A stretch of DNA of 64,000 nt from Chloracidobacterium validum (GTDB lineage Bacteria; Acidobacteriota; Blastocatellia; Chloracidobacteriales; Chloracidobacteriaceae): NCBI RefSeq assembly GCF_018304825.1, contig NZ_CP072648.1:231501-295500 (forward strand). Direction: 5' to 3'. Below, piece by piece: positions 9,513 to 12,575 of this stretch. Both the position numbers and the translations under genes were made by a program. Position 1 is the stretch's first letter; each line of letters starts with the position of its first letter. The notes below the pieces were generated by a model. That model ran no database searches and was not told the DNA's origin. It saw only the letters and a program-made list of their open reading frames with translations.

Positions 9513-10709
9513 CTAGGCCGGCGTTGCGTTGAGCCGTGTTGGGCGATACAGCCCCAGCAGGGCCCGGGTCAGGTGATAGAAGTTCTTGCTCATGATGCGG
9601 ACGCCATCCAGCATCGGCATGCGCACCAGTGTCTTGTACATGTAGGACTGGAAGGTAAGGTCCTGCACGCCACGGTCGCGGCAAATGGCAACGAAGGCTT
9701 CCCGGCGAGCGTCGTTCTTATAGTAGATGTTTTGCATCAGCTCCAAAAACCGGAACGTTGCCCCATACTTTTTCAGAAACGCTTTTTGATACGCTCGGTA
9801 GAGTTTCGCCGCCCGCAAGTCGGACCGGCATTCGAGCAGTGCCTGGGCCGCCATCTCGCCGCTTTTCATGGCGTAAAAAATGCCCTCGCCTGAGCTTGAA
9901 GCGACCAGCCCGGCTGCGTCGCCGACCAGTGCGACGCGGTTCGTAACCCACCGGTCATAGGGCCGCAGTGGAATGGGTGCGCCTTCACGCAGCGTTGGAC
10001 GCTCTGCAATGCCGAGGTGACGCTTGAATGCTTCAAGGTGGCCCTTGAGGTTGGCGCTGCGAATTGCCGTGCCGGTACCAATCGCCACGTGATCAGCCTT
10101 GGGAAAGACCCAGCCGTAGAAATCGGGCGAATACTGTCCATCGTAGTAGATTTCGCACCGTTCATTGAGACGGCGCGCCGTTTCTGTATCGAGCGCAAAT
10201 CGCTCTTGGACGGCTGCCGCCACGAGTCCGCCGCGGTGCAGGTCGAATGTTCGGGCGACGAAGGAATTGGCTCCATCCGCGCCGATGATGGCATCGGCAA
10301 CCAAGGTTTGGCGGGTTCCCCCGGTCGTGGTGCAGACGACGGTTGCGCCGCGCTCGGTCGCGTCCACGTTTTCGACGCGGCCTTCGATAACCAGCGCGCC
10401 ATGGTTTCCGGCGCGTTGGCGGAGGAAAGCGTCAAACGCTTCGCGGCAGACCATACCAACGTAACCATTCTGGATGTCCATGGTCACGGCGCGCCCGGAT
10501 GGCGCATAGACGGCAACGGCTGAAACTCGGCGCTGGATGAGTCGCTCAGGGATGTCGAAATCTCTCACCAACACCGGGGGGATAGCTCCGCCACAGGGCT
10601 TGATGCGGGAAAAGCTCTTTTCGATAAGGACGGTTTCGACCCCGGCGCGGGCCAGGGTGTCTGCCGCTGTCGCTCCGCCCGGGCCCCCTCCGCACACAAT
10701 CACTCGCAT
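9513..10709 (-). CDS. bchP: Geranylgeranyl (bacterio)chlorophyll reductase
   Basis: 398 residues from the chosen ATG at 10709, which begins directly with the FAD-binding fold (MRVIVCGGGPGGATAADTL; GxGxxG at residues 7-12) and has GGGGAAG upstream; an in-frame ATG at 10817 would add an atypical 36-residue extension. Other signs: IKPCGGAIPP near 37-46, the second FAD motif VALVGDAAGLVASSSGEGI, and YDGQYSPDFYGWVFPK. Known BchP/ChlP enzymes reduce three double bonds of the geranylgeranyl tail to phytyl. Assignment to BchP rather than an archaeal-lipid-type reductase rests on family likeness and on the adjacent BCD-type carrier. The gene lies downstream of a duplicated hairpin array. Confidence 0.88.
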   Translation of the reverse strand: MRVIVCGGGPGGATAADTLARAGVETVLIEKSFSRIKPCGGAIPPVLVRDFDIPERLIQRRVSAVAVYAPSGRAVTMDIQNGYVGMVCREAFDAFLRQRAGNHGALVIEGRVENVDATERGATVVCTTTGGTRQTLVADAIIGADGANSFVARTFDLHRGGLVAAAVQERFALDTETARRLNERCEIYYDGQYSPDFYGWVFPKADHVAIGTGTAIRSANLKGHLEAFKRHLGIAERPTLREGAPIPLRPYDRWVTNRVALVGDAAGLVASSSGEGIFYAMKSGEMAAQALLECRSDLRAAKLYRAYQKAFLKKYGATFRFLELMQNIYYKNDARREAFVAICRDRGVQDLTFQSYMYKTLVRMPMLDGVRIMSKNFYHLTRALLGLYRPTRLNATPA

Positions 10710-11186
10710 AGTTGCTTCCCCCAGACCTTGGAGATATGAGCTGACCGCCGCCGCCGGATGCGTCTCCCGGTTCGGCAAAACAGCGCCGCGGAGACGACTC
10801 AACGTGTGTAACGCCACAGAGAAAAGCGGTTGAAAGGCGCAACGTACATTTGCTCGTTCCCACTCAACTCGGACACGTCATCGCTCCCAAAACAAGTCAG
10901 ACGCTTTCTCGTTTCACAGCTTCATCCAATTTGCAGGGAAGGAAGCGTCTGCTTGCTGCGTCCCCACTCAACAAGGACACGCTCCTCCCTGCAAACCCGG
11001 CCGCACTTGCACGCTCTTTGAGCCAAGTGCGGCTGTTTTCCGCAAGTCAATTTGCAGGGAAGGAAACGTCTGCTTGCTGCGTCCCCACTCAACAAGGACA
11101 CGCTCCTCCCTGCAAACTCGGCCGTATCGGGTGCGCTCAACCAGCGCGATACGGACTTCATCTCATTGTCAACGCGCGCGCTTTCG
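10710..11186. other. Non-coding region between BCD carrier and bchP
   Basis: 477 bp with no convincing gene. Most is taken up by a duplicated hairpin element and its variable companion hairpins (listed separately). Both flanking genes read leftward, so this is a long intercistronic spacer or the 5' leader of bchP. Confidence 0.6.
10838..11161. repeat. Duplicated palindromic element with variable companion hairpins
   Basis: Two copies of a 77-bp element (10927-11003 and 11048-11124, 2 mismatches, 121-bp period). Each is a long imperfect hairpin closed by TTTGCAGGGA and TCCCTGCAAA. Each is followed by a second, non-identical hairpin sharing a CCG/CGG base: GCCGCACTTG/CAAGTGCGGC (11000-11033), then CCGTATCG/CGATACGG (about 11122-11156). 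A degenerate third copy (about 10838-10897, sharing CCCACTCAAC and GGACACG) precedes them, and CAGACGCTT (10898-10906) is an inverted piece of the unit. It does not resemble a CRISPR array. Confidence 0.85.
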
Positions 11187-12575
11187 TTAGCTTGCGCTGA
11201 CAGCGTCAGCCAGATGCTCGACGCCGTGGCGGTCATCCCGCCGTTTTTGATTTCGCTGAGGCGTCGCCCGCCCCATCAACAACAATAGGCAGGCGGTGGC
11301 CACCAAAGCCAAGGCTTCGAGTGCGAAAACGCCTTGGTACGCTAATCCGATTTTCCCAGTGATGAGTTCCAGTCCGGCGCGGCCTACACCGGCGGTCAAC
11401 CCGGCCACCCCTTGCGCGACAGCCTGGGCAATGCCCCAGACCCCAAGGTAGGTCGCGGCTTGTCCAGGGCGGGTCATGTCCATCATCATGGAGAGCGCCC
11501 CAACCGCAAAAATGCCGTTTCCCATCCCTAGGGTGAAGACCCCTATGCGCAGCATCCCGGTGCCCAGATCGGCGGCGGCGATCACCAGTCCCAGTCCCAG
11601 CGTACTCAACACCGCGCCAATCAATGCCATGTTTTTCTGCGAGAGTTGGTGGGCCAGGATAAAGCCAGCCAAGAGCATCGAGATGAGGGTTGCCCCACCC
11701 CACATGGGCTGCAAGCGGGTGGTGTCGGCCAGCGACATCTGAAGCACTTGCGCGCCATAGGGTTCGAGCAGCACGTCCTGGGCGTTGACCCCAAAAATGC
11801 CAAGCGTGATGACGGCAAAGAACAGCTTCGAGTCACGGTCAGCGGTCATGATGGCGATGGTTTCGCGCAGCGTTGGCGGTGTTTCGTCGTCCGTCGCCGC
11901 TTGGTGGTGGCGCGGCTCCATGCCAATGATGGCGACCGCTGCCAGCACGATGGAAATGCCAACAACGGTGTAAAATAGCCTTCCAAGCACTTGGTCAAGG
12001 GCCGCCGCGTCCAGGGTCGTCACATCCGTGGAAAGCTTCGACAGGTTCAGATCAAAGTACTTGGCAATGACGATACCGGTGGTCACGATCCCAAAGGCCA
12101 CCATCATGAACCAGGCAACCGAAATCGTCCGCGCGCGGTATGGACCAGAAAGGTCGCTCATCAGCGCCAAGTACGGGACAGACGCGGTGTTGAGTCCCAG
12201 TCCCCAGAGCGCAAACGCCACCGCGCACGCGAGGCTGCCCCAGACCGGCTGGGTGCGAATCCACTGCGCGCTGTGCAAGATAAGGATGAGTGAGCCAAAC
12301 GCAACGGCCATGCCCCCGACAATGTAGGGTGTCCGCCGGTATCCCCAGAGCGGCTTGGTGTCTGACGCATACCCGGCGAGTGTTCGCATCGGGCAGACGA
12401 CATAGTGCATGCACACAAACAGGCCAACCAGCGCCGCATTGATCTGCCACTCACTAATCAGCACCCGGTTGAGTACGCCAAAGACAAGTAGGGCGTTCAT
12501 GCCAACGGTGACATTGAGGAGTCCCAGTCGAATCGTAGCCAGTAACGACAATGGTGGTCTAGCCGGAGATGACAT
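11187..12575 (-). CDS. BCD-family (PucC/LhaA-like) MFS transporter
   Basis: 462 residues with 12 predicted membrane helices. The N-terminal half is characteristic of the bacteriochlorophyll delivery (BCD) branch of the MFS: RLGLLNVTVGMNALLVFGVLNR at about 16-37, CPMRTLAGYASDTKPLWGYRRTP around 61-83, and PYLALMSDLSGPYRARTISVAW around 133-154. Family members (PucC, LhaA, Bch2) assist light-harvesting complex assembly or pigment delivery in the inner membrane. Its position beside bchP supports a role in phototrophy. The C-terminal 20 residues are cytoplasmic and basic. Confidence 0.88.
   Translation of the reverse strand: MSSPARPPLSLLATIRLGLLNVTVGMNALLVFGVLNRVLISEWQINAALVGLFVCMHYVVCPMRTLAGYASDTKPLWGYRRTPYIVGGMAVAFGSLILILHSAQWIRTQPVWGSLACAVAFALWGLGLNTASVPYLALMSDLSGPYRARTISVAWFMMVAFGIVTTGIVIAKYFDLNLSKLSTDVTTLDAAALDQVLGRLFYTVVGISIVLAAVAIIGMEPRHHQAATDDETPPTLRETIAIMTADRDSKLFFAVITLGIFGVNAQDVLLEPYGAQVLQMSLADTTRLQPMWGGATLISMLLAGFILAHQLSQKNMALIGAVLSTLGLGLVIAAADLGTGMLRIGVFTLGMGNGIFAVGALSMMMDMTRPGQAATYLGVWGIAQAVAQGVAGLTAGVGRAGLELITGKIGLAYQGVFALEALALVATACLLLLMGRATPQRNQKRRDDRHGVEHLADAVSAS

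Follow-up and report, generated by a model that had tools for sequence, protein, structure and literature searches.

Small RNAs of the CcsR, or 'cuckoo', class carry a CCUCCUCCC loop. The RNAs CcsR1-4 are cut by RNase E from the 3' UTR of ccaF1, and PcrX derives from the puf 3' UTR (PMC10253847, PMC8625941). The puf intercistronic hairpin stabilises the pufBA mRNA (PMC10253847), and clusters of hairpins act in termination (PMC8355165).

The array of hairpins described here lies between two photosynthesis genes of Chloracidobacterium validum. Chloracidobacterium-type bacteria form a rare line of chlorophyll phototrophs, independent of the others, and to our knowledge little is known about how they control pigment synthesis. 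The RepRanger paper (PMC12306157) names the species and holds nothing on the pucC-bchP locus; the literature retrieved for Chloracidobacterium with riboswitch or noncoding RNA, mostly judged by title, was unrelated to the array.

Organization of the pucC-bchP spacer

The genome of C. validum (G000) comprises 3.66 Mb in two contigs, and the window, i.e., the whole 64,000-nucleotide stretch that was analysed, is G000:C1:231501-295500. The minus strand carries, in this order, a PUCC-family transporter gene (stop codon at 11187-11189), a spacer of 477 nt and bchP. The bchP product scores 469.9 bits against TIGR02023 BchP-ChlP (cut-off 343.3). The features, in the order of the minus strand, are:

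11187..12575, minus strand: PUCC-family (LhaA/PucC-like) transporter gene, upstream (Pfam PF03209, E 2.7e-80)
11122..11154, minus strand: variable companion hairpin beside pucC, stem CCGTATCG/CGATACGG, preserved in relatives
11050..11117, minus strand: constant hairpin, copy 1 in transcription order (28-pair hairpin; R1 model, 97.5 bits)
11000..11033, minus strand: variable companion hairpin 2, stem GCCGCACTTG/CAAGTGCGGC (CCGCACTTG stem), preserved in relatives
10929..10996, minus strand: constant hairpin, copy 2 (R1 model, 98.8 bits)
10835..10888, minus strand: short divergent copy, core GUGUCC-NN-GUUGAGUGGGAA (R1 model, filters off, 18.7 bits, E 0.019)
10801..10819, minus strand: block CTGTGGCGTTACACACGTT, conserved, separating the array from bchP (identical, but for R, in G001, G003 and G006)
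9513..10709, minus strand: bchP (geranylgeranyl reductase), downstream gene, ATG at 10709 (NCBIfam TIGR02023 BchP-ChlP)

The duplicated, nearly identical 77-bp hairpin element reported in a first-pass annotation was recovered as two 77-nt copies (10927-11003 and 11048-11124), 97% identical and repeated with a period of 121 nt. The unit measures 68-77 nt, and its 68-nt form was used for identity comparisons. Its TTTGCAGGGA arms, two per unit, occur only at the two units within the 64-kb window, and a search of the whole genome gave no third copy. Each unit is a long imperfect hairpin with an apical core of about GCGUGUCCUUGUUGAGUGGGGACGCAGCAAGCARACG; the apical loop is AGUGGGGACG and the CU-rich tracts sit in the stem. 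Outside the array, no site matches the core at 0-2 mismatches in four genomes, in a scan that allowed up to 3 mismatches.

The same annotation had held that the element belongs to none of the common classes, i.e., CRISPR, simple REP or plain terminator, and this holds: the unit is not dispersed, and no terminator-like site lies inside the array. A REP or other dispersed palindromic repeat was rejected on finding two adjacent copies only, and one locus per relative. An intrinsic terminator was likewise rejected, as no terminator-like site was found in 10929-11154; the TGTTTT run after companion hairpin 2 is on the plus strand. None of the Rfam 15 families matches the window at its gathering score, and the best hits at E<=5 are chance matches to microRNA and snoRNA models, far below threshold.

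Structure and RNA strand

On either strand, the folds of both units are far more stable than those of dinucleotide shuffles (z -3.9 to -7.1), and all four folds tested clearly beat such shuffles. The two strands were distinguished by the changes among six distinct unit sequences. Read on the minus strand, the 28 pairs are formed in 95.8% of cells and four of them have changed on both sides. In 500 shuffles, neither the paired percentage nor the covariation score of these units was reached, and controls with a slid register pair in 45-56%. On the plus strand the same pairs are formed in 83.8%, 12 of them altered solely by mismatches, and the unit model scores about 36 bits there versus 99 on the minus strand. 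The difference arises because G-U wobble pairs of the minus strand become A-C on the plus strand. One unit of G008, a member of a second genus, replaces U20-A47 by C-G and has a wobble at pair 23-44, within the otherwise invariant apical region. Given the small set, to which G008 contributes most of the changes, the covariation is good but not massive. Pair-preserving changes confined to one strand are what a conserved structured RNA in the general sense displays, and they place the putative RNA on the minus strand, sense for the pucC-like gene and bchP. A plus-strand RNA, which loses 12 pairs, was rejected.

This polarity bears on a DNA-level explanation, either a mobile palindromic repeat or a protein-binding DNA array upstream of a bchP promoter. 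The array does lie upstream of a conserved block resembling a DNA site. However, the unit is not dispersed in the genome, and the strand asymmetry contradicts this reading: wobble pairs kept on the minus strand are A-C mismatches on the plus strand, a polarity that DNA sites lack. We consider it very improbable.

The companion hairpins are as first described, with a shared base and differing inner arms; their position is the reverse, as in a minus-strand RNA each variable hairpin precedes its constant hairpin instead of following it. Compensated changes in the variable arms were found in the relatives. The stem at 11122-11154 survives U-A to C-G and G-C to A-U changes and contains G-U pairs on the minus strand, while companion hairpin 2 (11000-11033) has changes on both stem sides with the pairing kept. 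Overall the stem sequences vary, with 104 of 110 cells still Watson-Crick and four G-U. The three companions of G008 are near-identical, pointing to a separate duplication in that genome. Since neither dispersal of the unit nor a lack of covariation was seen, selection for structure, which had been made dependent on compensated change, is well supported by the comparison.

Two further pairings were considered. At 37 C, an inner hairpin (GCGU-G-UCC with GGGGACGC) falls short of the long hairpin by about 13 kcal/mol, so energy gives no support to a two-state switch, which was rejected. A 12-nt inverted repeat (92%), 10898-10909 with 10940-10951, offers a possible pairing between the 3' arm of the bchP-proximal unit and the downstream spacer; it was not seen in those spacers of relatives that were inspected.

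Sequence constraint

Within the genus, the unit is identical at 66-68 of 68 positions (97-100%). Identity is about 60-75% over the remaining spacer and 37-48%, near saturation, at the four-fold degenerate sites of bchP. At position 52, the pucC-proximal copies of G000, G001 and G005 share one variant and their second copies the other. Because the variants are sorted by copy across these three species, the copies are probably older than the species, and selection, rather than a recent duplication, would then account for their sameness. Across two genera, the apical core is nearly invariant while the stems change. Strong selection on both the structure and the apical core sequence of the unit is thus supported by comparison. 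A conserved leader peptide was rejected: frames that span the unit and the divergent copy are shifted or interrupted by stops from one genome to another (GTG TCG TAA in G008, for instance), so that no such peptide is conserved.

The near-invariant core also bears on purely mechanical hairpins after pucC, acting as mRNA-stabilising or processing barriers or as a cluster-type terminator, with only the stability of the fold mattering. The very stable folds and the place between photosynthesis genes suit such a role, for which the puf hairpin stabilising pufBA mRNA (PMC10253847) and the hairpin clusters acting in termination (PMC8355165) are precedents, and the companion hairpins, with fold kept and sequence free, fit it exactly. 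It leaves the near-invariant apical core across two genera unexplained while stems vary, however, and the minus strand has no U-run after the hairpins, the terminator scan listing none inside the array. On balance we regard this explanation as unlikely.

The short divergent copy and the block before bchP

The region at about 10835-10888 had been taken for a decayed third unit. It proved to be a divergent copy of reduced length that stands in the same position before bchP in 8 of 8 genomes, and is therefore maintained, not decaying. Its core across genomes is GUGUCC-NN-GUUGAGYGGGGA, and the R1 model detects it, though weakly, at five of seven loci (11-19 bits, E 0.02-1).

This copy is followed on the bchP side by the block CTGTRGCGTTACACACGTT (10801-10819), which matches just one other site in the genome, at 3 mismatches. 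As TCTCTGTRGCGTTACACACGTT, it is kept in the genus at the equivalent positions of loci L003-L010, and partly (CTGT-N8-ACACAC) in G008. About 20 nt beyond it is TTTTGCCGG. The block may be a promoter or operator site of bchP. Were it bchP's own promoter, the array would be a 3' UTR of pucC instead of a leader of bchP.

Distribution and link to phototrophy

A 324-nt query from the spacer was searched against 20 relatives. The same pucC-like to bchP spacer with the array was found in all six other members of the genus and in G008, from another genus of the family. The search of genome and relatives that had been proposed gave one locus in each relative and no dispersed repeat. Full copies number two in G000, G001, G005 and G006, three in G003 and G008, and one in G002 and G004. 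Among the 162 genomes of the class, the covariance model of the unit matches these eight alone, and the array is absent from the other 154. In an even sample of 396 genomes of the phylum, the unit model matched nothing but the members of the genus included in it. Matches to the core pattern in 84,980 species genomes were confined to this lineage, and the viral contigs searched for the core gave none.

Exactly the same eight class genomes have strong PUCC matches, and the FMO antenna protein FmoA (PF02327) is encoded in these eight of the 162 and in no others. As all array carriers, and only they, encode FmoA, the element tracks phototrophy in this lineage. Two genomes of the same family, G007 and G009, encode BchP-like proteins (49-58% identity) after an atpG-like gene, and have no PUCC match, no FmoA and no array. 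As a near-invariant RNA hairpin confined to the eight carriers among the genomes searched, the element appears to be a previously undescribed regulator of photosynthesis genes.

Three side observations were made. GGGTTCA-type direct repeats lie between the atpG-like and BchP-like reductase genes of two apparently non-phototrophic family members (L071 1215-1385 and L072 1365-1500). Locus L061 (JAAFHI010000127.1), titled 'Actinomycetota bacterium', has an acidobacterial pucC-array-bchP arrangement, and its deposited name looks wrong. G008 contains, on contigs C111, C282, C285, C363, C489, C717 and C1035, a dispersed REP-like palindrome close to GTCCCCCGCTTGAGCGGGGA, unrelated to the array.

Proposed function

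The reading we favour, with about an even chance of being right, is that the array is a factor-bound intercistronic element of the pucC-like to bchP transcript, controlling its processing, stability or read-through. It would be a lineage-specific structured RNA, sense to both genes and presumably on one transcript with them. The invariant apical core would serve as the recognition site of a trans-acting factor, most likely a protein. The presence of one to three full copies, in addition to the short one next to bchP, would allow more of this factor to bind. Binding would set the processing, decay or read-through of the spacer and thereby the amount of bchP relative to the pigment carrier. Since the companion hairpins preserve their fold alone, they probably serve as spacers or insulators, so that each unit folds independently. 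An invariant core sequence with free stems and companions argues for a recognition site over a merely stable hairpin; the sense orientation, together with a constant location at the pucC-bchP junction, speaks for an element acting in cis on that transcript.

Each constant hairpin could instead be released as a small RNA acting in trans through its apical sequence, with copy number as dose, like CcsR1-4 of Rhodobacter. Its location directly after a coding gene, the tandem near-identical hairpins and the invariant core are all in line with this, and CcsR1-4 (ccaF1 3' UTR) and PcrX (puf 3' UTR) are precedents (PMC10253847, PMC8625941). Against it, sites complementary to the core, array sites included, numbered 17, 11 and 13 in three genomes versus 11, 16 and 9 for a reversed control, i.e., no consistent excess, and among 30 matches listed no non-array site shares its context between genomes. 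The loop CCUCCUCCC of the CcsR class is absent here as well. Release as a small RNA is given a low probability. The four functions originally listed, i.e., leader RNA, processing or stability array, protein decoy and small-RNA cassette, are narrowed accordingly: a sense-strand intercistronic element is favoured, a CsrA decoy is excluded, and action in cis and processed small RNAs are not separated. The CsrA/Rsm decoy was rejected because the genome, 99.95% complete, encodes no CsrA (PF02599 not found; positive in three control genomes).

It is more doubtful still that the tandem cores form a ligand-sensing RNA, either as a tandem riboswitch or through a bound protein that senses tetrapyrroles or light, coupling bchP expression to bacteriochlorophyll intermediates or light. 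If so, no earlier RNA of this kind is known to us from bacteriochlorophyll biosynthesis. As for the favoured intercistronic element, a near-invariant RNA, absent from Rfam, at the junction of pigment carrier and bchP in every carrier genome would offer a direct handle on pigment control and a defined motif for testing a binding protein or ligand.

Comparison with known systems

REP/BIME repeats resemble the array as short imperfect palindromes in an intergenic spacer; unlike them, it occupies one locus per genome, is conserved by position and has the polarity of an RNA strand. Tandem leader RNAs and tandem riboswitches, too, consist of conserved structured units repeated ahead of a biosynthesis gene, whereas the unit here is a single long hairpin in which neither an expression platform nor a terminator is visible and which matches no Rfam family.

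The array shares with the alphaproteobacterial CcsR1-4 ('cuckoo') RNAs a tandem series of homologous hairpins that follows a coding gene of a phototroph and may be excised from a single transcript. The array departs from that class in two defining traits: its apical loop is AGUGGGGACG, not CCUCCUCCC, and its neighbours are PUCC and BchP genes, not DUF1127 (ccaF1). It also alternates variable and constant hairpins and is tied to bchP. The puf intercistronic hairpin of Rhodobacter capsulatus, which confers segmental mRNA stability, is likewise a stable hairpin between photosynthesis genes, presumably on one transcript. A puf-type position, the spacer of a photosynthesis gene pair, is occupied in eight genomes here; unlike the puf hairpin, the array occurs in multiple copies, keeps its apical sequence invariant and is accompanied throughout the lineage by a divergent copy. 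By analogy, CcsR1-4 and the puf intercistronic hairpin would be the nearest functional parallels of the array, differing from it in sequence, neighbours and layout.
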